Positions 1,171 to 48,820 of a stretch of DNA of 64,000 nucleotides are shown one piece after another; position 1 is the first letter of the stretch; every line of letters begins with the position of its first letter. The translations under genes were made by a program, and so were the position numbers. The notes beneath the pieces were generated by a model. It was not told the origin of the DNA and did not search any database. It saw only the letters and a list, made by a program, of their open reading frames with translations. The DNA comes from Bryoerythrophyllum caledonicum (Eukaryota; Streptophyta; Bryopsida; Pottiales; Pottiaceae). Location of the stretch: the NCBI GenBank assembly GCA_963971425.1, contig OZ020514.1, positions 20,185,406 through 20,249,405 on the forward strand, in the 5' to 3' direction.

Positions 1171-1628
1171 GCAAGTAGAAACCTACTTTTTGCGGGAGCC
1201 TAATACACAACGCTGAACATTGTTAGGGCAAAAATAGAACCCTGTCTTTAAATTCAACCAATGTGATAATTCATTCACTTTCCGGTGCATGTGGGATATA
1301 TTGTGGCATTTTTCCTTTTGGATGATCTTCCTTGTGCATTGCTTCCTTGAGAGGCCCTAAAGAGCTCAACGTGCTACACTAAAGCAATGTTTAGGTACTT
1401 GGATGATATGCCAATCGGTAACATCAAGGTTGAATTACTCTACCCCGAAAGATGAGTAAGTCGATTGTGCCCGACAATAACGTTGTCCATAAGTTTGGGA
1501 CTTGGAGAATTCTATGCGCCGATAGTTAGACCGACATCCACATTTAGATTTGCACCCTCACCAACCTCTTGGACAACTTCACGAGTCCTTTAGGCCTTAC
1601 TCGACTTGGTCTCTACTTGGTGTCACAG

Positions 1629-1977
1629 GATGTAGCGTCGAGGGCCTCTCTGTATCATAGTTTTAGCGTAGATTAGTTTGTTACTAATCTACGTGTATTT
1701 AGGGACAAACGGCGGCGGCCGCATTCATTCGAGGATGATTTTCATCCACTTATGATTGTAAGCATGTGCGTATAGCGCCGCACATGCCCTTGACTTTACG
1801 TCTTTGTCAAGTCAAGCTTTGTGAGTGAGTTAGTGAGTGTTTAGTGAGTTCTTTGCTTGTAAGTGATGGTTTGTCATTAGTAAAGGCTCCGCATTCACTA
1901 CTTAGTTGCATTCATTAATTCTCCCCTTATAGAGTGCGTGCCGCTTGACTTCTTGTGGAAAACACATGAATCTTTCA
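1629..1977 (+). repeat. Left LTR-like direct repeat of the Ty3/gypsy element
   Basis: This stretch matches 10495-10836 over almost all its length, including the words CGGCGGCGGCCGCATTCATC-like, GTGCGTATAGCGCCGCAC and TTTGTCAAGTCAAGCTTTGTG. It lacks the first ~110 bases that the right-hand copy has (10385-10494). The inner end near TCTTTCA at 1971-1977 is taken as the LTR end. Confidence 0.75.
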
Positions 1978-3330
1978 CTTGACAAAGACCTCCTATTTCT
2001 TCTTCAATCTCCACCATTTTCTCATTTGAAGAGTTTATAGAAAATAGAAAGAATGGAGGAAAAATGGGTTTCAAAATATATTTGTTCCGGCGTTGTTCCA
2101 GCGTCCGTCCGTCCGGTAGTGTGCGTCCGTCCGGCTGTCTGTCCGATAGAAGCTGTTGTCCGTCCGGTAGAGAATATTCTAGAGTATTTGGGTATAATCG
2201 GGAATATTCTTATATTTAAGGGGCATATTCTTTGGAATATTCTAGGCATCCGTCCGGTAAGGGTGTTGTCCGTCCTATCCGACTGTCCGTTCGTCCGTTG
2301 TCTTTGGGCCCCTGTCCATCTATATAGACAACCCTGAGCAAATGTCATCAAAGATCACGGGCAAAAGGAAGGGCGCATTTGCGACATGGGCTCCTAAATC
2401 CACAAGTACAAAAAATTGTGCTGCGAAACCCTATAGCGTCAGTTTGAGTGCTGAAATTTCAAAGAGTCTCTGGAATGTAACCTCAAAAATTCCAACTTTT
2501 GCAATTTTTGTGTTTTGTAAATTCTGATCGAGGATTTGGGTTTGCAAAAGAATTCTAAGACTAGTGCTGTTGAAACTAGTTAGTTTAAAAAAAAAATTGG
2601 CGAGTTTTCGGGACATCCGAAAACAATCACATGTTTTTGTGATCTTTAAGAAAAAAAAAAGTAAGTGCTAAACTTTGGGAGTAGATTGCAAGGGCATTTT
2701 AACTTGGATGTGAGTTAAAATTTGCGCCTATAATTCGGAAATTTGCCATTTTAGTCCAATTTTAGTGTTGGATTACCTTGTTGACGCGTTAAATCACCCA
2801 TTGTGGCAATTGCATTGGGGCGGTTTGTTTTTCTAATCGCTGCGGTCAATGTCCCTCTATTTTTTTAGTTCTAAACATTGGGAAGAACACTTGCAAATTT
2901 TTTCTCTTTGTATTGCAGGTTTGCGAATTAGGCCATCAATTGCATGCGTGTGTAGTGGCTCTGACTCCTTGTCCATTCTGCATTTATATTGTTGGGTGAG
3001 AGGATCCGGTTTTGATTTCTGGATTCTTGTGCGGTACCTCCCCGTGTTGCAGGCTTGTTGCCGGAGTTTTCCGATGGCCCCATTTCCTATTATACTAGAT
3101 TGTGATAGGGTACCTTAGGGGTGAAGTCGGGTTCATGGCCGGCAAGACCATTTTATGTGAGAGGATGTGCTTGGACCTGTGTTAGTCAAAGGTGATGACC
3201 GATAAAGCACATAGCTTTTTATGTGGAGTGTAGGCACGTTCAACAGCATGGAAGACGATCATCGCCACGTTGTACGTGGTTGTTTCTAAAGACAGGTTGA
3301 AGGCATTTCCCTACCCAATTGACAACTCCG
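1978..3330 (+). other. Leader of the Ty3/gypsy element with a GTCCGTCCG-rich tract
   Basis: This lies between the left LTR and the first gag-like coding. At 2097-2300 it has many imperfect GTCCGTCCGGTAG words. No conserved domain is visible. Short open frames in both strands over this tract are by-products of the repeat. Confidence 0.45.
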
Positions 3331-4400
3331 ATTCCAAGCGTGGATGAAGAAGAAGCGCCAGCGGACGGCGTCGTTTAACAATTGGTTTGCGTTCGAGCTC
3401 TTGCCCCAATATTTGGAGCTAGAGGGCTCTTCTGTCATACGGGCGATGACCATGCAGCATGACACTCAGTTACGTCCCATTGAGGAGTACTGACGCAAGC
3501 GTGTGGAGTTGATAACTGCGCTCAAGGAGAGTGCGGTTTCTCAACTCTCGACTTCCACGGAGGAGCCTAAGGTGGAAGAGAGTTTCCTCCGTGAGGACTC
3601 TAGAGCCAAGGACATTGCCAATGTAGACGAACGGTCTAGCATGGGGGTCGTATCACGTTTGGCCGTAGCTACACGTGCAGCATTGATGGCGGTTGGCAAT
3701 TCGACAGCCTTCAATCCTTTGGTGCAATTCATGGCGCACTCGGAGGTGGAGTACGGGGGGTTCAAGCGTGATCAAATGGAACGCATCCAGGATTTTTGCC
3801 GAGTGAAAGACGATATCCCACACACCATGTATGCCCGGTTGGCACGATTGTCAGCGGAGGCCGGTGATGTGTTCACGGAGCGCGAGCTTGTGAAGATCTT
3901 CATCTCCAAGCTGGATAAGCGGATGGTGGAGTTAATTAGTACACATTTTTTTTCCGGTATCACAGGAATGCCACTTTGGCGGAAGCCTTTGCCGAGGCGG
4001 AAGCGCTTGATAGGGCAATGGATGTGAGCAAGGCCACATATTTGGTCACGGCACTGATGGATGCTCCTAAGCCCAAGAAGCTTGCCACCGCAATTAGTAG
4101 CTTGGTGGAAGCAGAACCTAAAAGGTTGTGCATTGTTGGGCTTGTGGGGACACAAGTCACACCAAGAGAGACCCAAATTGCTCCAAGAAGAAAAGGGCAG
4201 GCATGGTGAAGGTCAAGCCCAAGACCGAGGCGGCCAAGACTGCAGAGAAGGCTCGGGGGAAGGAGAAGAAGGTTGTGCCATGCTGTCATTGTGGCAAGAC
4301 TAACAATAGTGATGAAAATTGTTTTGACCTTCATCCGGAGAAGCGCCCAAGGACATCGGCTGCTAAATCAGAGGTTGTAAAGAAACTTTAGGCCAAGATG
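3330..4400 (+). pseudogene. gag region of the Ty3/gypsy element
   Basis: A hydrophilic helical capsid-like region (about 3500-4030) is followed by two zinc-knuckle-like cysteine clusters near 4131-4170 and 4285-4330, in a lysine-rich setting. That is the usual capsid then nucleocapsid order. The region is decayed. The boundary with the following linker (4400-5150, proline- and serine-rich) is unclear. Confidence 0.6.
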
Positions 4401-5149
4401 GCGGAGGTGAGGAAGTAGATGAATGCGATGGCATCTTTGAAGCAAGTGGCGGACACATAACCACGGTGGAGTCAGGCCTCATCTTCAGCCCTAGATCGCT
4501 ATTTGTATGGCGCTTCATGGGAGGTGGTGCCAGCAGTTGCCACTCGTGTTCAGACCATCGCACAGGCGATGGCTCCTTCTCCCTCTGTGCTTGGTGGATA
4601 TGGCCATCCATGCCACACGGGATTGCCTCACCAGATAAATCAGTCCCGGTTCCCTCTTTCATTCAGCATTGTGGATGCGGCAACTTCTACTGCGGCTCCG
4701 ACTCCGACCCCGGTCCCACCAGTTTTTTCTGGTCGTGGAGATGTCGTATACACCTTGGCGTACAAGGTGTTGTAGTTGCCGATATTTGCTGGTGTGGACT
4801 TTCTGACACCGAATTTTCAACGATCCGGTTTATTTCACATGGCGGGTAGTATATTGGAGGGCAAGGTGCCCATGCCATTGTTGGACGTGTTGCAGGCAGT
4901 AACCGCTCCATCCACCGAGGAGGATTTGGTGGCAATGCGGGCCAAGTTGGCGGCGGAGGCTATTTCCGCGTTTGAGGCCAATGCCACTTCTACACTTATC
5001 GATCAGTCCTCCGAGGATCAGTCCTTAATCTCTGAAGTGGCTTATTTGTCTAATATAGCGACCGGATCGGCACGGAAGCGACGCAGTGTGCGTCGAGGGA
5101 TAATACGTTTGATAAACGATGACGGAGTCATGGTGGTTGATTGTACGGA

Positions 5150-5330
5150 TGTCAACCCCACCCGAGCTACCCCCCTACGTATTATGTTGGACTCCGGAGC
5201 TCAGCCACTGATGATTGGCAAGCAGCTATCCCTTGGTACAAAGGACCTCAAGCCATGCCATTTACGATTATTACATTGGTTGGGGGCACAAAGAAGGCCA
5301 TGGGCTACACCTGACATCCGTTGTAGTTGA
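5150..5330 (+). pseudogene. Aspartic protease segment of the Ty3/gypsy element
   Basis: The pattern LRIMLDSGAQPLMIG matches the D-[ST]-G-A active-site loop of retropepsins, in its expected place after gag. Beyond it, up to about 5860, the sequence is a decayed linker with no domain I can name. Confidence 0.65.
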
Positions 5331-5859
5331 TGTACAACATGGGATCTGGTCCTTTATTCTCTCAGGTATCTCTCCAATGCGCAGTGACTGGCGCCACCAA
5401 CTAGGACATTTTGGTGGATCAACAGGCACTGTATCCCCTTGGTTTTGGAGTGGATAACGGGATGGAGGATGCTTGGATTAGGCCTAGGTGGTTTGTCGGT
5501 GATGGCTGAATAGAGCTCATTCTGGTTGTCTTCGTAGCTAGCGCGGTGACTTCTACGGCGGATGCTATGCTTGGGTGTAGTGCCTTGGCATCCGATTTGC
5601 CATTGGTTCTTTACTTTTGGAGGAGACATATGATTTTATGTCGGAGGGTGGGAAATCACATGAGTTCATATCAGTGGAGATCCCTGCACGTCATTGCAAG
5701 GATCCCCTTCCTCCATGGGGAACTCAGCTGGAGCTCGTACGCCGCAATTGGGAGATTGTAGAGGCTATTGATGCTCCGTGCCTTTGAGTAGACTCTTCTA
5801 CTCTGTTGTTGGTTTGCACTATTCAGTGGCAACCATTGGATGAATGTATAACCCTTGTG

Positions 5860-6830
5860 TAGTTATTTGTAGGTATCGGTACGGGGCTCGCGGTTGTGTT
5901 AGAGGCCGGGCTCAAGGTTCGACAGTATATCCACGTGGATAGTGGCTTTGAAGCCAACTGTGCCGCTCACCATCAAAATTAGCGTCTTTTGGCGTTGTAT
6001 CCAGAGCAACTACCACCTTCTGCGATTTGAGGGTGTTTTGGCAAGTTGCCACGTGATGTGACGTTGATCAATGAAGATGATCTTTGCCGGTTAGGTCACG
6101 TGGACTTGGTGATTCCCGGATGGCCTTGCCAAGGCCATTCACGGACGGGTAGTGGACGTGGCTTGGATGACCCATGGTGAGGTCTCTTTGCGGATTTGCT
6201 CAAGCTCATCCAGTGGTGTATTACCCACCAATCAATGCCACCCGGGTGCATTTTTGAGAATGTTCCCCCATTGGGAGATACACGGACAAAGGCGTGTGAG
6301 GATGGGACGTACATCCATCACCTTCTTGGTCCCCTCACGTTTGTTGATGTCGCGGCGTTGGGCTCTTACGTCTATCGGCCACGTTGGATTTGGACAAAAA
6401 TGGCATCATCGACGACGCTTATTTCTACACTTGCTCAAGTGCAAGAGCCCGTGCGCTGTGAGGTCAATGACATCTTGAACGACCACCGTGTCTCCACGGA
6501 GGTTAGCAAGGATGATGAGCCACCATTGGCCGTGGTCAACCGCGTTGGTTTCACTTGGGGGGAATTTCCTACCTTGTTGTGTTATCCCGACTCTTTTGCC
6601 TTTAGGACACGCGGTCCGAGCATGGTTTGGGATTCATCTTCCCAAATTTACGAGGAGCCTTGTGCCAACAAGAGGGAGTAGGTGGTGGGCTTTTTGACAT
6701 GCACCACCGCCGCACCGGATCTCTCTGAGGGCCAGCATCGTTATTCATTGGGTCAAGTCATTGACCTCGACACCCTCGTTTGGGTTTGTGGCCTTTGTTT
6801 CGCCGTTCAACGCCGTTTGAGTGACCATCC
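5860..6830 (+). pseudogene. DNA (cytosine-5) methyltransferase domain inside the retrotransposon
   Basis: Several C5-methyltransferase motifs appear in the canonical order. Motif I (AdoMet binding) is like LFVGIGTGLAVVLEAGLKV near 5866-5922. Motif IV with the catalytic Pro-Cys is GWPCQGHSRTGSGRGLDDP near 6118-6175. Motif VI is FENVPPLGDTR near 6253-6290. Further on come the conserved PLTFVDVAALGSY with RPRWIW, then FPTLLCYPDSFAFRTRGP near 6565-6620 (motif VIII region), and a closing TTAAPDLSEGQ with LGQVIDLD near 6705-6770 (motifs IX-X). In living relatives the enzyme moves a methyl group from S-adenosylmethionine to carbon 5 of cytosine. It lies between protease and reverse transcriptase, so it was part of the element's polyprotein. 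The single-chain motif order I-IV-VI-X resembles DNMT3 or bacterial enzymes, not the rearranged DRM order. The copy is a broken fossil. Confidence 0.88.
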
Positions 6831-6859
6831 ACGTTTGCTAGGGGTAGACTCTAATGGTC

Positions 6860-7280
6860 AAGGGGCGGCGGTGCCACATCTCATTGAGATTGAGGAAGCA
6901 AGTTGTTTTTTCATTTGAAGAGGCATGCAACTGAGGAGCTTTGTGTTAAGCGTGTCTTTGCATCTTTGGACGAGGACTTTGGTCGAGAGGATATCCGAAA
7001 CATCTTTTCCGAGTTTTATCATCCCGACACAGGATTTCCTGTAGATCCCGTGTGTGAGGAGTCTGGAGGCATTAATGCCCTCTCTTCTATCAAGTAGCAA
7101 TCACCGACGTGCTCGTACGCGCTGAGTCTTCTATAGTAGAGAAAGAGACAACGGAGTTTGATGATTGGCCTATGGATTTAAGGCCACATCTTATAAGTGC
7201 CAAGGCACAAAGAATCCGAGCATTTATACTTACGTATCGTAGTTGTTTTGCCTTTAGTCTCCATGATTTGTACGGCTACA
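6860..7280 (+). other. Linker between methyltransferase and reverse transcriptase
   Basis: Coding-like but decayed sequence. It includes an acidic stretch near 7050-7170 and the lead-in to the reverse transcriptase (LKDDHPIFRRPYKLG near 7300). No separate domain is recognised. Confidence 0.4.
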
Positions 7281-7289
7281 TAGGCAAAC

Positions 7290-8010
7290 CGATTCACATT
7301 CAATTGAAAGACGACCACCCGATCTTCCGACGACCGTATAAGCTCGGTCTCTCTGAGAAAGTTGGGTTCAGACTCGTTGTCAGGAGTTGTTGGCTGCCAG
7401 CTTGATTGCGCTTTCTAATGGCGAGTACGCTTGTGCCACTTGCGGTCCGGTTACCACTAGTTACCATTGATGATGGACGACTGGATGAAGACCGCGTTCT
7501 TGGGAGTTGATCTGGATGGGAGAGATCAGCTCTACCATTGGAAGTTTCTTCCATTTGGCCTCAAAAATGCACCCGCTGACTTTTAGAGGTTATGGACCGG
7601 GTGTTGACCAATTTACCGTTTTTCCGATGCGACATTGATGATGTTATCATTTTTAGCAGCAGCCTACAGGTGCATGTAAGGCATCTTCAAGCAGTGTTTG
7701 AGAGGCTACGGCAGTGGGGATTGCGCTTGCACCATGGCAAATGCATATTCTTCCATGACCGGTTGCCATACTTGGGATATATGATTGTTCCAGGAGGTCT
7801 TGGCGTCCAGCAGGCAAAGGTTGACGCACTGCAAAAGATCTCGGTCACAATCGACATGTCATGGCTAAGAGCTTCTCTTGGCCTGGCAAATTACTATTGC
7901 CGGTTTATCAAGAACTTTAGCTTGATTCCCAAGCCGATGACTATTCTCACGGGGAAGGATCAGCCATGGACTTGGGGATGGGAGCAGCAACAAACATATG
8001 CTACTTTGAA
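7290..8010 (+). pseudogene. Reverse transcriptase of the Ty3/gypsy element
   Basis: Hallmarks of a Ty3-type reverse transcriptase are visible: the entry segment HPIFRRPYKL, the catalytic-loop region with DIDDVIIFSSS near 7630-7665 (the position of the Y/F-x-D-D box), then HLQAVFERLRQWGLRLH, KCIFF and PYLGYMIVPGG. In a working element it copies genomic RNA into DNA. The connection to RNase H is direct, as usual for the family. It is decayed. Confidence 0.85.
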
Positions 8011-8029
8011 GCTCAAGCTTAGTTCAGCG

Positions 8030-8430
8030 CCTATACTGCGGCGTCCTGATGCTACACGGCCTTTCCACGTGCACACACATTGGAGTGCGGTAGGATTGGG
8101 AGCCGTGTTGACTTAAAAGGATGATGAGGGACGGGAGTACCTTGTGGCGTTTGCTAAGAGCAACAACAACGTGGAGTCCAACTATTTGTCCTATGAGGGA
8201 GAAGCTTTGGCCGCGGTTTGAGCCATAGCTCATTTTAGGCCCTACTTGTACGGGCAACGTTTTAGGTTGGTGACCAAACATCAACCTTTGAAGTGGCTCA
8301 TGGAGTCTGACAAGCATACTGGCAAGCTTGCCAGGTGGGCTTTGTTGCTTCAAGAGTATGATTTTGAGGTTGTACATCGCGCTCGCATCACGAACTTCGA
8401 TGCGGATGGTCTATCTCGCAATCCAAGTCC
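8030..8430 (+). pseudogene. RNase H segment of the Ty3/gypsy element
   Basis: The run RPFHVHTHWSAVGLGAVLT, a YLSYEGEALAAV-like helix, FRLVTKHQPLKWL and ARWALLLQEYDFEVVH then NFDADGLSRNP is the typical Ty3 RNase H series ending in the ADxLSR box. It follows the reverse transcriptase directly. Confidence 0.85.
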
Positions 8431-8599
8431 TTCGGAGGAGGATTTGATTGGTGTCAGGTGGCATGGAAACTGTGACACAAAGTCAGTCACGGGGTGGCAT
8501 GCAGTGGCTTACCTCACGTTGATGTCTAGCTCCGCATTGACATTGCCTGATTTGGCAACGGATGAGGAACCAATAGGGTCTAAGTTATTAGTGATGTGT

Positions 8600-9450
8600 G
8601 GGAAGACGGTCCAGTCTTGCACAAGCTAGAACATGGAACACTTCTCTCGGCTCTTTCTCCTAAGGAGCGTGATAGAGTTGGGCATCAAATAGCAAGGTTC
8701 TGTTGGGAGAACGGCCTTCTATTTTGGTTGTGGCCAGATGGGACTAGGCGCATAGTTCCAAGGCCAGATCAAAGGGCTTCGTAGGTACGGCAAGTATGCA
8801 AAGATTTAGGGCATTTTGGTATGCGATAGACTCATTAGTTGTTGCGCAGCTTGTATTGGTGGATCGGCATATATCAGCAGGTCGCCACCTACGTTTCTTG
8901 ATGTAAAGTATGTGATCGGCTAAGATCCAGCTCTAACACCTTATCACCCTAGTTGCAGCCATTGCCCATTATGGGGCTAGAATATCGGTGGTCTTTGGAC
9001 TTTGTTGATCCACTTGTTGTTATTCCACGCGGAGCCAAGTATGTCTTGGTGATGGTGGAGCATTTCAGCAAGTGGATTGAGCTCGTGGCTCTCGCGTAGT
9101 ACTCTTCAGAGTTGGCGGCCATGGCATTCCTCGACCGGATGTTGGCTCGTTTTGGAGCTCAAGCTGAGGTTTTGGCTTACCAAAGACGTGAGTTCCTTGG
9201 AGCTTTCAAAGCTTTGTGTACCAAGGCTTTGATTGACCATCGTACCACTTCTCGAGATCACCCGGAAGTGGATGGTTTGGCGGAGCGTGTGGTTCAGACC
9301 GTGAAGTGGGGCCTACAGAAGTATGGATTACTTCAGGGTAGCCATCGTCATTAGGATCTCATGGTACCATGGATCGCTATGGGATACCAGTTTAGTCGGC
9401 AGGCTGCACTAGCTGCTTTCAGTCCGAATCAGTTGTTGTATGGACGGGAG
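8600..9450 (+). pseudogene. Integrase of the Ty3/gypsy element
   Basis: An HHCC-type zinc-binding region near 8800-8925 is followed by a DDE core: the YRWSLDFVDPLVV strand with its aspartate near 8990-9020, MVEHFSKWIEL near 9050-9085, and a final segment SRDHPEVDGLAERVVQTVK near 9257-9310 that carries the catalytic glutamate region. It is decayed. The C-terminal tail leads into the extra domain described next. Confidence 0.82.
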
Positions 9451-9480
9451 CCAGTTTTACTAAGTTCCGTTGAGTAAAAG

Positions 9481-10040
9481 TTGGCTTTGGTTGTGGATTT
9501 GGATGATCTAGAGGTGTGGGCCCAGTGTTTACGAGATCGAGCGGAGTTCTTCAAGCGGGCCATGCCAATGGTCATGGAGGACTTATCCATTGCTCAACAC
9601 CGTGACACCTTACAGTACGCTCGTATTCGTAGTGGTGCATACCGACTTGAGCTACGACGTTTTCCTGTTGGAATATATGTTTATCTACAGCGTGACGTGC
9701 CTATGATGTTGGACGTCAAGGCCGGGCGCACCATTCTTCGCATCAAGGATGTATTGCCTAGTAACATCTTGTTGTTGGAACGCAAAGATGGCGGGGAGTG
9801 TCGGGAGAACTCCAAGAACTGTGCACCCTGCCATTTGTCCATTGATAGCTTCGTGCATCCTGAGTTGGCCGTTGTGCCACATGGTCTTCCGTGTTTTGTG
9901 TGTGGTGAGAAGAAGGGTGCGGCTACCCATTGCTTTGTGACCATTGCCACCATGGCTGGGATATGGCTTGCATGACGCCGCTTCTTTCTACTCTACCATT
10001 CGGAGATTGGACTTGTCCTCGTTGTCGGAGGTCTTCGAGC
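9481..10040 (+). pseudogene. Integrase C-terminal tail ending in a PHD-finger-like domain
   Basis: A basic beta-rich tail (RRFPVGIYVYLQRD, then MLDVKAGRTILRIKDVLP) resembles the GPY/F-type module of Ty3 integrases. After it lie Cys-rich segments: CFVCGEKKGAATHC near 9895-9940, CDHCHHGWDMAC near 9933-9970 and GDWTCPRC near 10000-10030. Together these spell the C4HC3 series of a PHD finger (two CxxC pairs, His-x2-Cys, a conserved Trp before the last CPRC). In other proteins PHD fingers bind histone H3 tails, so this may have steered integration to chromatin, as chromodomains do in chromoviruses. The fossil is broken. Confidence 0.72.
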
Positions 10041-10384
10041 CACGTTTCATCCAATGAAACGGCTTCAATTCCTCTTGGACTTATCACTGTATGGTGCGTT
10101 GCTTTCCAGTTGGAGTTCCTGGTTTCAATTCAGGGATAAGCAACGTGGAGATTGACCAAGGAATTAGCAACAAAATTGCCTAAGGCAATTAAAGATGGGG
10201 CTCACATTGCACCTGGCCTACCCTCTCTTTGTTACTTCTCCATATGCTTATTGATTCGGCGACAAGCAACATCTTCGACTGGATGCGTATAGTTGTTGCA
10301 GCGACATCATCGTGGCGATTAGTCTTGTTAGTGCTGTATGGTCCTAGCTGGATAGAGGGTCTCTTTATCCGCTAGGGGGGCACT

Positions 10385-10941
10385 TGAGGGTGTATTACGT
10401 ATACTTGTTTTAGTGTATGTTTTTCATTTATTTGATGTTGATTGGGACTCTCGATCTGTTGTGGTTATTGATCTTTCTTTACACGACAGCTATTACGCAA
10501 CGTGGCGTCGAGGGCCCCTCTATATCGTAGTTTAGCATAGATTTAGTTTGTTACTAATCTACGTGTGTTTAGGGACGAACGGCGGCGGCCGCATTCATCC
10601 ATGGATGGTTTTCATCCACTTAGGGTTGTATACATGTGCGTATAGCGCCGCACACGTCCTTGACTTGACGTCTTTGTCAAGTCAAGCTTTGTGAGTGAGT
10701 TAGTGAGTTCTTTGCTTGTAAAAGATGGTTTGTCATTAGTAAAGGCTCCGCATTCATTACTTAGTTGCACTCGTTGATTCTCCCCTTGTGGAGTGCGTGC
10801 CCCTTGACTTCCTGTGGAAAATACATGAATCTTTCCTTGAGGGTGTATTACGTATATTTGTTTTAGTATATGTTTTTTGTTTATTTGATGTTGGTTAGGA
10901 CTCTCCATGTGTTGTGGTTATCGATCTTTCTTTACACGACA
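10385..10941 (+). repeat. Right LTR plus the beginning of a further LTR copy
   Basis: 10385-10836 is the right LTR, opening with TGAGGGTGTATTACGTATAC. At 10837-10941 its first ~105 bases occur again (TTGAGGGTGTATTACGTATA through TTTACACGACA), so a second partial LTR follows head to tail. That layout suggests LTR-LTR recombination or a tandem insertion. Confidence 0.65.
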
Positions 10942-12540
10942 TTGGAGATGAAAGACATTGATTATATTCGGGGAGAAGAGGGGGGATTCATCTTTCATCA
11001 TGGGGGTACTTAGTCAATCTTTTGTCATGTGCATTACATTCTAATTAGATTGATAGGAGATGTGATTAATTGCAGATTCTTGAAGAAATTGTCACTTCAA
11101 TTCATGTTCACATAGTTGAGGGAGAGAAGAAAAGAAGGAAATGTGGATCTTCATTTCTCAAGTAGTAAGCACATGACGAAGGCAAGGATAGGAAGACGCA
11201 AGGCCTAGAGGATGGCTTAGAAGATATCCCTTATGCCCTATCATTAGAGATTGGTGAAAATGAGAATTTGCCAACTATTGGAGAAGATGGTGCAACGCCA
11301 TTCGTACGTAAGGAAGACGACATCAACGATGTTCAATGTCCTAAACTCCAACGACGTTCAAAAGGGGTGTCATTAACGACATCTCTTTGGTGTTGAATAA
11401 AGATTCTATTTCTATGAACCTTGAAATGGAGCTTGTGATGCACTTTCCAAAATGGTGTAGATCAACAAGAATTGAGCTTGAAAGAGTACATCATGCACGG
11501 ATGAAGTATGTCAACACAAACCTCATTTAGACATAACTCTCTCATCCAATATCCATTTCTAATATGCCACACTATTTTTGAAATCGAATCAAATTCACAA
11601 GAGTGTGCTCAAGAGGGCCGCCGAAACCGGCACCCCATTGGAAGTGCCTACAAGAAACTCCAAGGCACATTGAAAAGCGGAGCCATTAACGGCACCCCCT
11701 TGGTAGTAAATGATAAGTCTATTTTATTTAAACCTTGCTACAAAGCTTGTGACATACTTTCTAAAAAGGTGTGGCACGTAAAAAATTGAGCTTTAAGGAG
11801 TGTATTGTGTGCGGATAAAGTATGTCAACACAAAATTGCATTCATGCATAACTCTCTCATCTAAGCTTTATTGCAAATGTGCCACACCATATTAGAAATG
11901 GCATTAAATTTTCAAGAGTATGCTTTAGGGGGCGGCCGGCATTGGTACTCTTTTAGGAGTGCCTACTAGAAACTTCATGGCACTTGCCCTTGGATTGAAG
12001 GTTTTTAAAGTATGATCTTTCATTTGGTTGTCTTTTCAATATCTAACAACTCGAAGTTGCTATGAGTAGTACTCTTATTATTTTTGTTGTTTGCCAACTG
12101 GGATTGTTGGTGCTAGCATAGGGGCTGCGAGTGTTGGCATGGGGGCTGCCCATGCCGGCATAATGGTTACAGTATATGTACAAACTGTTAAAGCAAGGCC
12201 TATCAAGCCTCTAGTCTCTTGTAATCTAAATCTAAATGTGACAGCAAAGGAAGTTCACATTTACGGATGGAAGTAGAGTTCATCAAGTGTTAAATTGTTC
12301 ATCAACAAATACGCTTTGAAAGTTGGGTTATTGATTTTGTGAGGCAAGATATCATTGCCTTACGAATGCTCAAGAAACATGCTCATATGCGTCTTTGGAC
12401 AAGTATGCCATCCATTTGAAAGCATGGACTATATTGAACTTAACTACAATCAGAACCCTTCGAATGGCTTTGGGTAGAGAAGTGATTCTAGTGGTTGGTT
12501 GCTAACGGAGCCAATGAGGCCTGCTGATGCCGGCTCCTCT
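10942..12540. other. Gene-free stretch with a diverged ~314-bp tandem duplication
   Basis: Two copies of one unit start near 11417 and 11757. The shared word AAGTATGTCAACACAAA begins at 11504 and again at 11818 (period 314). Other shared words are ATAACTCTCTCATC, GTGCCTACNAGAAACT and a GGCCGGCA-like block. A short G-rich tract near 12090-12170 repeats TTGGCATGGGGGCTGCCCATGCC-like words. No gene is recognised. Confidence 0.5.
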
Positions 12541-17466: not shown

Positions 17467-18827
17467 ATGGCTGCTGCGAGCCGGCGAGTGCTGCACGGCC
17501 TGCGCCTGGCGAGGGCGAGCGTCGCGCTGCTGCAGCGGAATGTCGGGTTTGGATTTGCAGCGGAGGCGGTAGAGGTAGGAACTTCGTATCATTGTTCTCA
17601 GCCGAGGTCGGAGAGAGAGATTCATGTTCAGCGGTGGAAGGAGGAGGAGGCGGGGGGATGGTCGTCGTGGAGGCACTTGTTGCCGAGAAACGTGCACGGG
17701 ACGGCGTGGAGAAAGGACGAGGACGAGAAGCAGCAAGTAGTGAAGCAGGAGGATTTGCGAGTGAAACAGGATGAGAAGACACTTGCGAATGAGGAGGCGC
17801 GCAATCTCGTGCAGCATGTGCACTTGGCATCGCTCAAAAAGAAACTCAGGGACGATCCACGCGACACGATCGGCTACGAGGAGCTCCTGCAACTGTGCCA
17901 GACCATCGGGATGGCGTCGGACAAGGAGGACGCGTGCAGGATGGCGCACGCATTTAACGAGACCGGGGTTGTGATCACGTTTCGGGAGAAAGTGCATTTA
18001 CATCCCGAGAAGGTCAGTCTAATTCGGTGGTGAATTTGAGAGGTCTTTGTCTTTGAATCCAGCATCATCGGATTTCTCAAAGCGTATCATGTTGAAGAGT
18101 TCTTGTTTTTTGCGGATCTTGCGGAGTGTACTTTGTTTTGCTGGAGTACTCTGTTTATGGCGGAACGAATTGAGTTGGTGGCGTTGCACTTTTGTAGAGA
18201 AAACCGGTGGACGTTGGAAGATGTTTTATTCTATTTTCAAAGCATTTGCTATCCGTGAGGGTTTCTCTTATCGATGGAATAGTGCGATCTTTTGCGTGCT
18301 TCTTGAAGCGAGGGTTTATGCAATGCAAGTCTTGATAGGGTTTGTACATGAAGGAATTGGTGAGTGTGGCACAGATTGCAGAGCTTGTGGCGAACGTTCT
18401 TCCGCTGTCTTTGCTAGGCGAGGACGACCAGAGGAGGATGGAGCTCATGGCGTTGGCGAAGATGAAGGAGGACATTGACAGGAAGGCGCACAAGCAGATG
18501 CGACTCGTGTTGTGGACGGGGCTGATCGGCCTGACGGCTCAGATGATGATCTTCTTCCGGCTCACATTCTGGGAGCTCTCATGGGATGTGATGGAGCCGA
18601 TCGCCTTCTTCGCCACAGGCACTGGTCTCATCTGTGGCTACGCATACTTCATGATCACGTCTCGCGATCCGAGTTACCAGGACTTTATGCACAGAATTTA
18701 CCACTCGCGCCAACGGAAGCTGTTTAAGAAGCAGAATTTTGACATCCAGAGGTACAAAGAGCTGCAAATGCAGTGCGAAACCGGGTGGAAGCCCTTGACC
18801 AAGAAGATACTGGAGGACGCCGATTGA
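17467..18827 (+). CDS. MCU: Mitochondrial calcium uniporter, pore-forming subunit (two exons)
   Basis: The product forms the calcium channel of the inner mitochondrial membrane. Exon 1 is 17467-18012 (182 codons), intron 18013-18374 has a GTCAGT donor and a CACAG acceptor in phase 0, and exon 2 is 18375-18827 (150 codons plus TGA). The 332-residue length fits plant MCU proteins. The N-terminus MAAASRRVLHGLRLARASV is Arg-rich and free of acids, as in mitochondrial presequences. A charged coiled-coil region precedes transmembrane helix 1 (about residues 225-248). The selectivity-filter signature WDVMEP is at 252-257, with the Asp and Glu that bind calcium, then helix 2 (about 258-277) and a basic C-terminal helix with SRQRKLFKKQNFD. 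The ATG is in good context (GAAGCCATGG). GC content is far above that of the surroundings. I see no disabling change. Which MCU paralogue it is cannot be told. Confidence 0.95.
18013..18374 (+). other. MCU: MCU intron
   Basis: The 362-base phase-0 intron splits the coding sequence after HLHPEK and before IAELVANV. The donor is AAG|GTCAGT and the acceptor CACAG|ATT. Reading straight through gives a stop soon after the donor. Joining the exons aligns the protein with plant MCU where HPDK-like text runs on into the helix before the membrane segments. Confidence 0.85.
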
Positions 18828-35986: not shown

Positions 35987-37990
35987 CTACTTTCGGGTCA
36001 ACTCCTCAAGTCTTCTCTTCTCTTCCCTCCTCTTTCGCTTCTTCGCGCTCTTGCTCGAAGTCGGGAGAGCCGCGGCCGTCGCAAGCGTCCCAAGAGGGAA
36101 TAACGTATCTGCGGATGAAGAGGGTGCTGAACCGGCCATGGATGACCGAGGCAAGCCCTCTGTCGAAGTCAACGTGGCATCCGGGCCACCCAGAGTGAGT
36201 AGCACGGAAGTAGTGCCCTGGTGGAGCTCAGACCGGGCCGGAGGGACCGGTACCTGGCTCAGAGTCCCAATGAAGACCTCCTGAATGGAGGTGTGTCCCA
36301 ACTTGCTCTCAGTCCGTACGGGAAGGTGCAAGTAAGCTGAACTCTCACTAGTGGTCTTCTCAAAGGGAGACATACCCTGCAAAGGGGCAACGGTTGATGT
36401 GGTGCGACCGGGGTCTCTAAGGGAAAACTGGCGAGGAAGAGCCGTGCGCGGAGGCTCCATCGTGGCACCCGTGCGCTCCTTCCTTACGCTCTGTACCTGT
36501 GTGGTGACATCTGAAGGAGAATGGCAGGCAGGGACTTCCACAAGTGGAGTCCGTGAGGGCAGAACCGGGCTATCCAGATCAATCACACCCTTCCCCTTTG
36601 GAAGGCCTTGGTCACCTGAGTCTTGCCTCTCCGAATCAGCCTCCGAACCAGAATCGTCATCCTTGCCCGCGCCATCAGCTTCCTCCACGATCTTGGGCAG
36701 GATGTGGGTGAGGTTACTCACCAACATCCTCATCTTCGCATAAGCTGTCTCCAGCTTCACCGTCTGCTCCACCATGAAAGCGATTACCCTCTTGCTGGAG
36801 TTATGGCCATCTCTCTCCAACTTGGCATCGAACATCTTGGCCTTCAACACTGCATCCGCTGGAAAGTGCAAGGCCTCCTCCACCTGCTGTTACACTGATG
36901 CTAAGGCATTGGCTTGGAGACATGCCTCCTTTCCCCCCTTCTCTGCCTCCAACGCCCTACTCTTTACCTTGGCCATGTCGAGGTTGAGCCGGTCCACCTT
37001 CTGCTCCATGATGCGAAGGTCACTAGCACCTCCCATCTTCTCCTTGACTGCTGCCACCAATCCATGGCTAGGGGGATTGCCCACCAAGCCACACACCTGC
37101 CCCAACGTCTTCTCCACGTCGTCCACATACCCTCGGAGAGCTTCAACCAACTCGGAGGCCTTGTAAGTCTTACCTCCGAGTAGAGCTGAACCGGTGGCTG
37201 CTGCTCGAATAGCTGCACGGGTCCATGTCGAAGGAGCTCCACCTTGGTGCTGCCTCTGTCGCTTGGGGGGTGGTGGTGCCTCCTCCTCTGACTGAGATGA
37301 GCTGCTCCCTCCTTCCGATCCTGGCTCGTGCTCCGACTCCGTCCCCTCGAACTTCCTCAACATGAGTTGGGTCCCATACACCACATCCTCATTTGAGGTG
37401 GTCTCCTTGAAGTGGTGATAGAGATGGATCAGGAATGGACAGATGGGAGAACGCCTGGTGCTCCCGACACTCTTGGCCAACCTCAGTACTATCTCCTTCA
37501 CGATGATGGCCGAGTTCACCGTCCTCTCCCCCAGGTAGGCTCCATACAACGTGTTAGCCAAAGTGACGATGACCCGGTTGGGTCTCTCAGGGTACAAGAT
37601 GGGTACAAGGAATGAGAAGACTCGTTTGGCACGAGGGTCCACGCAGTCTTGCAACGCGTAGCCGTTTTTGGCGTCCTTGGCCCCGAACCTCCCTTTAGCA
37701 TACTCCTCCTTCTTCAAACTTGTCCACCCCGCGCCCTGGCGTGGAAATTTGTACACCTCCTGCCACCTCCCCATGGTCCACCGTTCGGGGCAAGCGCAGA
37801 TACTATCTCCCTCCGGCTCTGGCAAGGGGTCCTGACGCGGCCCCTGCACCGTGGACTCAATACAAAACCCCCAACACAACTTGAGGAGAGAGAGACATCC
37901 CATGCGGAGAAGGTCGTCCTTGAGCTCGGTGAGCTCAAGAGGATCCTTTGGGACAGGAGGGGAGATATCCCTTACCACGGAAAGAGCCAT
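35987..37990 (-). pseudogene. Coding region of retroelement-like relic 1 (possible Transposase_32-type gag-like protein)
   Basis: The N-terminal ~230 residues (37990-37300) are globular, with GRWQEVYKFP, then RFGAKDAKNGYALQDCVDP, LVPILYPERPNRVIVTLANT and CPFLIHLYHHFKE. A Ser/Glu-rich linker, KRQRQHQGG, a coiled coil (37100-36900), another helical part and a long disordered tail rich in Pro and Ser follow. The globular part matches the protein at 47430-47800. The pattern of a bulky-residue motif, about 20 residues of helix, and PFLIHLY near the end reminds me of the plant-specific PF20167 (putative plant transposon) domain seen in gag regions; this is a guess. The region is broken. Confidence 0.5.
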
Positions 37991-38059
37991 GCTGAAGCTT
38001 AGCCCGGGAGACCCTCACCGTCGTCCTTGTGTGGGTGTTGCTTGTCTTTGCCTTGGCCG

Positions 38060-47119: not shown

Positions 47120-48820
47120 GAGGGACTTGGTGAGGTCAGTGCGTGCAGGATTTCTAGACACCATTGCGAGACGCAAGTTCACGGAGAGGTGGGCACGGAT
47201 GGTGGGCAAGAAGGGTAAAAATCCGGCAGCCAAAGCCCTGCTGCTGTAGAAGGTGACTCCGGAGATTCCGAAGCCGGTCAAGACCTGCCGGGTTTTAGAG
47301 AGCTTTCTTGAGATTATGGGTTGTATAGGTCTTTTAGGGACACCATGGGCCTTCCAGAGCGAAACAATGATGGCGGAGCTCCTGGGAGAGCCACCAAGCC
47401 AGTACGCGCAGAAGATCAGGGCGCATCCAGAGGTCTGGACCACAACACTCTGGAGAGACACTTACGAGCTCCGGGCAGGGACGATCAAGGTGGCGGAGCA
47501 CGACGACGCCATCCTGAAGGGCAAGTTCTGCGCGAAGGCAAACCCTAAAGATGGGTACGTCCTCAGCGACCTCACCGATCCGAATGCCAGGTTAGTTATG
47601 GCATTCTTTAACCCCATTTTTCACCCCGAGAAACCTAAACGGATAGTGGCCAAGTTAGCTACACTGATTCTAGGGTCGATGAGAGGGAAGCTGTCCGTTG
47701 ATTGGGCAGCCATCATGGACGAGCAGATCGACAGGATGGTAAAGAACCTGCCGAAAGCCCGGAAAACCCCATCACCCCTTTTCACCTACCAGGCCCATAT
47801 GTACGCAAAGCAAAAGATGTTAAGTCCGGATGAGCAGGCCAAGTACGATAGCGTGCTCACCATCTAGTCATACGGAGGGATGGAGATAGATGAGGAGCCG
47901 GAAGAGTCGACGGACTCTGAGACGGAGAAGTCGTCATCCCCCCTTATACTCCGAAGATCGAACCGGAAGCGGAGTCGTTCGGTTCAGAAGACTCCAGAAG
48001 CCTCCAGATCCGGCCAGCCTCTGTCAACGATACCGGCTCAGAGCCCACCCGCAGCACCACCAACCGCATTGGAAACGGCCACAGAAGACGAACGATTCGC
48101 GATCGGATCAGAGTCGGGACCTAGGTTTGTCCCAAGCATCAGTGGCGACATACCGGTGGACGTTCACCAGCTCTGCAGACACATTGTCTGGCGGACCAAG
48201 ATCCAGGAAGGAGAGATCCGGGAGAGGCACGCCATGATCATGGCCGTCCTGGAGGCAGTAGGACTGGAGGACACCACTAACCTCATCGCACAGCTCAGAC
48301 AGATGAAGGAGAAGCACAGTTCCGTCACAAGACTCGAGTAGGAGAACGCCACTATAACCAAGTTCAACACCCGGCTCTGGGGTCAGGTCCGGCAGGCGGA
48401 AGCTGCACGGGATGCAGCACAACATGCTCGAGTGGTGGCAGAAGCGAAGGTCCGGGCAGCCTCTCAGACCTTGACAGATATCCGCACAACGTTGGACTTC
48501 CCGATAGATACAGTCAACCGGGCGCTGCTCTACACGGAAAGCTTGGAGAAGAACGAGAAGCTCAAGAGGGGGCAGATCATCCGGTTCCTAGTGGATCACA
48601 GCCGGAAAATGGAGAGTACCTGGACGAAGATGCAGGAGCTAACGAGGGATCTCGTGGCGGCGGCCTCAACAGTACAAGAAGCTCCACCTCCTTTCCCGGC
48701 ACCTCCTGCTCCAGACGCGGCTGGTCCATCCGAAACCACTACAAGACCATCCGGAACCACTGTAGGACCATCCGGATCCCCATCTGGATCGGCAGATGCT
48801 TCCCCGTCCTAACCTCCGGC
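47120..48820 (+). pseudogene. Coding region of retroelement-like relic 2
   Basis: The globular first part (to about 47867) has LWRDTYELRAGT, GKFCAKANPKDGYVLSDLTD, MAFFNPIFHPEKPKRIVAKL, LGSMRGKLSVDWAAIMDEQI and TYQAHMYAKQKML. It matches relic 1 over about 130 residues (GRFGAKDAKNGYALQD, LVPILYPERPNRVIVTLANT). Then come an acidic linker (EIDEEPEESTDSETEKSSS), a basic patch RRSNRKRSRS, a coiled coil and a Pro/Ser/Thr tail. The layout is the same in both relics. It is broken. Confidence 0.5.

Follow-up and report, generated by a model that had tools for sequence, protein, structure and literature searches.

The land plant Bryoerythrophyllum caledonicum harbors a Ty3/gypsy retroelement that carries a C5 DNA methyltransferase between its protease and its reverse transcriptase (RT), and whose integrated copies mostly end in split direct repeats. 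A decayed copy occupies positions 1621-10941 of the 64,000-nt stretch of genomic DNA analysed here (the window), with domains in the order Gag, protease, methyltransferase, RT, RNase H, DDE integrase, and PHD finger. Judging from sequence, the element probably primes its own reverse transcription, integrates from circles cut inside its long terminal repeat (LTR), and methylates the DNA copies that it produces. A retroelement possessing its own DNA-methylating enzyme runs against the common picture of DNA methylation as a host defence, and this one is abundant, apparently conserved by selection, and recently inserted in a land plant. Circles have long been regarded as a retroviral dead end; the end structure of this element is a testable case of a retroviral-type integrase that would have circles as its normal substrate.

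Domain order and reading frames

In the window copy, Pfam cut-offs are exceeded only in the methyltransferase, RT, and RNase H regions, and the Gag, protease, integrase, and PHD pieces were named through relatives and motifs. One such relative lies on L001, a contig of 9285 bases catalogued as part of a cyanobacterial genome, whose ends overlap by 127 bases and whose frames are open: a first open reading frame (ORF1) of 1346 aa encodes Gag, protease, and methyltransferase, and a second (ORF2) spans 1047 aa, stop to stop. A further relative, P0003, bears a bacterial name, and we take both to be misfiled plant DNA. All features of the window copy lie on the plus strand. The decayed Gag part of ORF1 (3224-4130) aligns to ORF1 of L001 and gives no match to a Gag or any other Pfam family; it is followed by two zinc-knuckle-like stretches (CWACGDTSHTKRDPNC and CCHCGKTN; 4134-4304), and zf-CCHC exceeds its cut-off in the relative P0049. 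With Gag recognised by position and zinc knuckles only, the Ty3/gypsy set of Gag, protease, RT, RNase H, and DDE integrase is present. The retropepsin active-site box LDSGAQP lies at 5187-5228 in a protease piece that has no Pfam match; Asp_protease_2 is above the cut-off in the relatives P0050 and P0051 and below it in five others. The methyltransferase domain (5842-6804) precedes a decayed RT and RNase H region at 7109-8629, which matches RVT_1, RT_RNaseH_2, and RT_RNaseH, contains the RT motif CDIDDVI at 7628-7648, and lacks approximately 164 bases of L001 at position 7438. The decayed DDE integrase core at 9001-9400, with GLAERVVQTV at 9274-9303, has no Pfam match in the window, and rve and H2C2 are present in the relative P0054.

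The methyltransferase forms the last part of ORF1, which closes with a UAG codon before RT. In L001, ORF2 encodes RT, RNase H, DDE integrase, and PHD finger in the same frame as ORF1, directly behind a UAG followed by CARYYA, and the window possesses the same UAG CAA UCA at 7095-7103. This context matches CARYYA, the tobamovirus readthrough motif. Taken together with the adjoining sequence, the motif has 157 exact places in the host genome, and its reversed control has none. UAG-CARYYA was found in seven of eight loci checked, including the window, while L013, which aligns poorly in this region, had no match; all four copies of a second subfamily read UAG CAA CCA and continue into RT without a change of frame. 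A frameshift before RT, suspected from the reading frames of the window, was rejected in view of the single frame and UAG of L001. The preliminary description of this DNA had placed the enzyme between protease and RT within one Ty3/gypsy polyprotein. Its position is upheld, but continuity with RT is not, because the enzyme ends the Gag-protease ORF and an in-frame UAG precedes RT. That description mentioned neither the decay nor the boundary between ORF1 and RT, the UAG, or the ends of the element.

We infer that the methyltransferase is a partner of Gag and protease, made with or without readthrough. The same domain order is found in 13 long ORF1s: that of L001 and those of 12 database entries, 1252-1451 aa in length, in which the methyltransferase is in frame after the protease region. 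All seven of the 12 that were scanned match both PF00145 and an aspartyl protease, the latter above the cut-off in two. By regular expression, all six methyltransferase motifs, PCQG and ENV included, are present in 12 of the 13, and P0044 lacks one. Methyltransferase and RT share one ORF in five of 29 pol hits (P0062, P0063, P0069, P0070, and P0072); the other 24 either start after the methyltransferase position or are without the domain, two cases that are indistinguishable in these records.

The PHD finger of the window (9892-10026; PF00628) lies C-terminally in the integrase and is divided between two frames; its second part matches at E 4e-4, below the cut-off, compared with E 1.4e-11 for the finger of P0054. 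A PHD finger is present in 17 of the 29 pol relatives, C-terminal to the integrase in those scanned. In chromoviruses, chromodomains occupy this place. The best sequence matches of the finger include those of CHD4, PHF12, PHF21A, KAT6A, KDM5, and ATXR5, several of which read unmodified H3K4; by analogy, such reading would suit a role in the choice of insertion site.

The methyltransferase and its copies

The preliminary description had reported C5 methyltransferase motifs in canonical order at 5860-6830, an interval that fits the domain at 5842-6804, and the motifs are real. Six motifs share one frame: FVGIGTGL (5866-5889), GWPCQG (within 6094-6141), FENV (within 6250-6279), YRPRW (6373-6399), RE.VVGF (6670-6693), and LGQVIDL (within 6745-6783). 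Scanned with stops written as X, the domain matches PF00145 at E 3.7e-9, its score of 36.9 bits exceeding the cut-off of 22. It is 82% identical to that of L001, with no indel between them, and it contains five in-frame stops; the window copy is therefore dead.

By profile, the putative enzyme is DNMT3-like. When a profile of 39 sequences was compared with solved structures, DNMT3A ranked at the top (E 6.7e-19), followed by 4onj, a tobacco DRM (E 5.6e-10), and by HaeIII (E 1e-8); with an earlier profile, chains named DNMT1 reached only E 1.5. The motif order is unrearranged and the nearest solved relatives are DNMT3A/B. These ranks and the motif order rule out a DRM-type enzyme, in agreement with the earlier assignment. 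The element family and DNMT3A have AHR.R..W.N in common and differ in PCQ versus PCN. For a reading of bacterial capture, the identities over part of the domain are not decisive, at 23-32% in the ten best phage rows listed and 26-34% in the ten best from plasmids, and the methyltransferase tree is long-branched. In this tree of 25 rows, the 20 retroelement enzymes form one clade (support 99/99), with the window next to L001 (98/93), and DNMT3A joins three phage enzymes (80/63) on long branches, there being no plant DNMT3 among the rows.

The host genome was searched over 437,360,962 bases in 894 contigs. The methyltransferase stretch yielded 806 loose first-look candidates, of which 40 were scored; all 40 give almost complete matches, made up of the window itself and 39 others that are 88-89% identical. 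Other copies carry the enzyme in the same position. It is thus neither confined to a single locus, being present in the 40 genome places and the 12 database ORFs, nor a nested host gene missing from other copies. PF00145 exceeds its cut-off in 123 of 123 scored places from 1054 genome candidates. Twenty of the 123 lie in open frames of at least 1300 residues, one with a stop in the match, and long open copies are therefore present in the host genome. One of the scored places, L034, differs from the element enzyme and is a full-length bacterial-type Dcm (E 2.4e-62) beside what by eye is a transposase-like ORF; its location inside a chromosome-sized contig (C14) reflects either scaffolded contamination or transfer.

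A protein search gave 38 methyltransferase homologs and then 13 longer ones, including the 12 database ORFs. Among the 29 pol hits listed, the nearest named relatives are from the liverworts Calypogeia and Marchantia. A search of viral contigs found no relatives, and a search of genome contigs found none with P0003 and one with P0054. The second subfamily (L056-L067) is another methyltransferase-bearing lineage, near the group of P0013, P0014, and P0024, to which it is 80-83% identical. Methyltransferase-bearing ORFs are scattered in the RT tree, with 5 changes where shuffling gives 5.2 on average. Rows starting after the methyltransferase position could not be scored for the domain in this tree, and two animal rows were left out because of their length.

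Comparison of the methyltransferase of seven younger copies with L001 gave dN/dS ratios of 0.07-0.09 in all seven, a set in which L007 and L009 are a duplicated pair and two members have one stop each. These ratios indicate that the methyltransferase is under purifying selection. Five of the seven pass all six motif tests and two fail. Among the seven copies themselves the ratio of means is 0.47 at a dS of 0.034, as expected if decay follows insertion. Between the window and L001, dN/dS is 0.21 (0.15-0.31) for the methyltransferase, 0.145 for RT-RNase H, 0.225 for the integrase, and 0.42-0.44 for the tail and for the stretch from zinc knuckle to protease. Mean pairwise identity among the 13 long ORF1s is 0.74 for the methyltransferase, 0.755 for the protease, and 0.58 for Gag, the methyltransferase thus equalling the protease in conservation. 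Because the six motifs persist in 12 of 13 ORFs and dN/dS is 0.07-0.09, catalysis by the enzyme is probably used. In the window, C-to-T changes number 132/682 at CG, 113/621 at CHG, and 201/2012 at CHH sites; changes in the reverse direction are lower in the same order (58/559, 35/413, and 136/2080). The raised C-to-T values at CG and CHG could be explained by host methylation alone.

Terminal repeats, target sites, and primer site

The integrated element of the window lies between two copies of the target site duplication TTGG, at 1617-1620, directly 5' of TGTCAC, and at 10942-10945, directly after ...GACA. At the left end is repeat A1 (1621-1976), beginning with TGTC; its boundaries were fixed with the aid of L001 and of further copies. 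On the right, a polypurine tract, AGGGGGGCA (10374-10382), adjoins the 5' side of repeat B1 (10383-10488), which is followed by a GC spacer of two bases, repeat A2 (10491-10835), and repeat B2 (10836-10941), ending in GACA. B1 and B2 agree at 97 of 106 bases, and A1 and A2 at 309 of 344 aligned bases with 13 gap positions (90%). A similar tract with small changes is present in 9/9 copies possessing a right end. A1/A2 identity is 96-100% in all 16 other copies giving a value, from both subfamilies, and 99.5-100% in the second subfamily.

The ends of 20 further copies were read from the top of the methyltransferase match list, giving 16 left ends, 18 right ends, and 14 copies with both; two right and four left ends are missing from the stretches read. 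Integrated copies mostly have the structure A1-body-B1-GC-A2-B2 between TGTC and GACA ends. The 18 right ends comprise 15 of the form B-A-B (two of which share a flank and represent one event), two of B alone, with exact duplications, and one of B-A (C9a). Four-bp target duplications flank 19 of 19 copies with both ends read (the window, these 14, and four of the second subfamily); they are exact in 14/14, the TTTT of C9b being weak. The second subfamily, with other repeat sequences, has the same end order and duplications in four of four copies, with boundaries drawn by eye. A whole LTR does not stand at both ends of an integrated copy, the left carrying A alone and the right B-A-B or B. A reading with plain LTRs at 1632-1982 and 10502-10840 was dropped in view of the TGTC and GACA ends of L001 and the other copies; of the earlier designation as an LTR retrotransposon, Ty3/gypsy membership is retained and plain LTRs are replaced by the order A1-body-B1-A2-B2. 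At 40.28-40.34 Mb of contig C2, two copies with the same right flank lie in opposite orientation near the contig end, either an inverted duplication or an assembly artefact.

The join between B and A, GACA-GC-TGTC (GACAGCTGTC), is a perfect palindrome in L001 and in the second-subfamily copies and is decayed in the window. Among 14 A2-B2 joins printed, 11 connect the end of an LTR with the start of an LTR (TTC|CTTGAGG), two that belong to a single duplicated pair are one base off, and that of C12 ends in ATTCAGA. Probing the host genome for exact matches gave 104 joins of type A-B and 70 of type B-A, and the reversed controls gave none. Three contigs contain 24 exact B-A joins, of which 14 are followed by an exact A-B join 330-400 bases on and the other 10 lack an exact one.

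Directly adjoining A1 is the primer binding site ACTTGACAAAGAC (1977-1989), the perfect 13-nt complement of GTCTTTGTCAAGT at 1800-1812 within A1, where the RNA 5' end is predicted. Among 2000 single-base shuffles of A1, none attains 12 paired bases, and among 205 body 40-mers none attains 10. The same pair occurs in L001 with a compensated outer base, the exact pair is found in 11 of 15 host-genome copies read and fails in four, and the second subfamily has a different 13-mer pair in 4/4 copies. By this complementarity the element is probably self-primed, the primer site pairing with the predicted RNA 5' end in A1.

Proposed replication cycle and related elements

We propose that occasional readthrough of UAG would yield Gag-Pol, the methyltransferase being thereby made in Gag amounts. 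The RNA would begin near 1800, fold back, and prime itself, and reverse transcription would generate normal LTRs of the order B-GC-A, 453 bp in length. Joining of LTR ends would give one- or two-LTR circles. The integrase may open these within the LTR, at the GACA-GC-TGTC palindrome, before inserting them, so that a two-LTR circle would produce A-body-B-A-B and a one-LTR circle A-body-B. The right ends B-A-B and B, both observed, would fit these two kinds of circle. In the particle or the nucleus, the methyltransferase would encounter the freshly made double-stranded DNA, and methylation before or at integration would let the copy enter chromatin already marked, with the PHD finger perhaps aiding the choice of insertion site. 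We suggest more tentatively that circle integration at the LTR palindrome is the regular route of this lineage, that its own DNMT methylates the circle, and that copies arrive methylated, in plants already equipped with silencing methyltransferases of their own.

The split repeats might instead arise during reverse transcription, through template switching or strand transfer that yields a linear A-body-B-A-B molecule, with no circle integrated. DIRS elements with A-coding-B-A-B repeats are known (PMC5890265), and the circle model derives from integrated products. We nevertheless regard a linear origin as doubtful: the two right ends that stop at B1 with exact duplications are those expected of one-LTR circles cut at one site, the 11 of 14 joins from LTR end to LTR start are those expected of two-LTR circles cut at that site, and the two ends form a palindrome where B meets A. 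The enzyme itself could be kept for another job, methylating neighboring or competing DNA or RNA, or binding nucleic acid non-catalytically. In the consulted parts of that article, its authors call the role of DNMTs in known retrotransposons unclear and report that the Klebsormidium nitens domain gave no methylation in yeast, a result they consider inconclusive (PMC5890265). Here, however, the retention of motifs and the low dN/dS argue for catalysis, and a place in Gag-protease would put the enzyme inside the particle, making such another job unlikely in our judgement. Chance insertion or nesting of a host methyltransferase gene in one element copy can be set aside almost entirely, given the 40 of 40 scored places, the window among them, the 12 long fused ORFs, the Marchantia proteins with methyltransferase and RT in one ORF, and the single clade of 20 rows. 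None of the copies read lacks the methyltransferase at this place, copies having been found through that domain or the pol ORF.

The model of self-priming, circle integration, and self-methylation joins features of several known elements. The closest known is KnitGypsy-Dnmt3 of the alga K. nitens, compared here by description from part of its report, which has Gypsy domains, an unrearranged Dnmt3-type methyltransferase, DIRS-like repeats, and Ka/Ks below 0.2 (de Mendoza et al. 2018, PMC5890265). Its host is a different plant, and its DNMT lies in the Pol polyprotein ORF, whereas the present enzyme ends the Gag-protease ORF before UAG. The word PHD is absent from the main text of that article, and the parts consulted hold no mention of target site duplication for KnitGypsy-Dnmt3, self-priming, or readthrough (PMC5890265). 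The K. nitens match P0081 is partial and contains pieces of RT, RNase H, and integrase. SymbioDIRS-Dnmt3 of Symbiodinium, as described in the same parts, also has A-coding-B-A-B repeats, with a DNMT3-type domain in the ORF carrying RT, but it possesses a tyrosine recombinase (PMC5890265), where the present element has a DDE integrase and 4-bp target duplications. The present element thus shares the split direct repeats of DIRS elements (15 of 18 right ends and 4/4 in the second subfamily) and differs from them, as they have a tyrosine recombinase and no target duplication, in its target duplications and in the rve and H2C2 domains of its relatives' ORF2. Tf1 of fission yeast is self-primed, its primer site pairing with the RNA 5' end, and has plain LTRs and no methyltransferase. 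The likeness lies in the primer-site complement inside A1, where the RNA 5' end of the present element is a prediction.

Occurrence in a land plant, suggested by the preliminary description, holds, and Marchantia polymorpha records already contain the kind. Mp_2g26090 (P0063) and MARPO_0091s0058 (P0069) encode an LDSGAQ protease-like box, methyltransferase, and RT, in that order, and are respectively 42 and 46% (methyltransferase) and 68 and 59% (RT) identical to L001. Neither has a Pfam protease match, the LDSGAQ box being read from the letters. They differ from the present element in having methyltransferase and RT in one ORF; both are recorded as hypothetical proteins, and P0069 is marked partial. 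In the parts consulted, a 2025 paper mentions DNMT3 in streptophyte retrotransposons (PMC12344493) and a 2019 article states that land plants, for example tracheophytes, lack transposons with DNA methylases (PMC6338049). A literature search by title and start of abstract, with most subscription papers outside its scope, recognised no report of a DNMT retrotransposon in a land plant, and the words methyltransferase and DNMT are absent from the moss and liverwort papers checked.

Elsewhere in the window, two long ORFs at 36893-38014 (minus strand) and 47250-47864 (plus strand) are 31% identical to each other, have no Pfam match, and perhaps represent another repeat family. A mitochondrial calcium uniporter (MCU) domain lies at 18339-18824 (PF04678, E 1.6e-47), and the ORF upstream of it, from 17428, may hold its first part.
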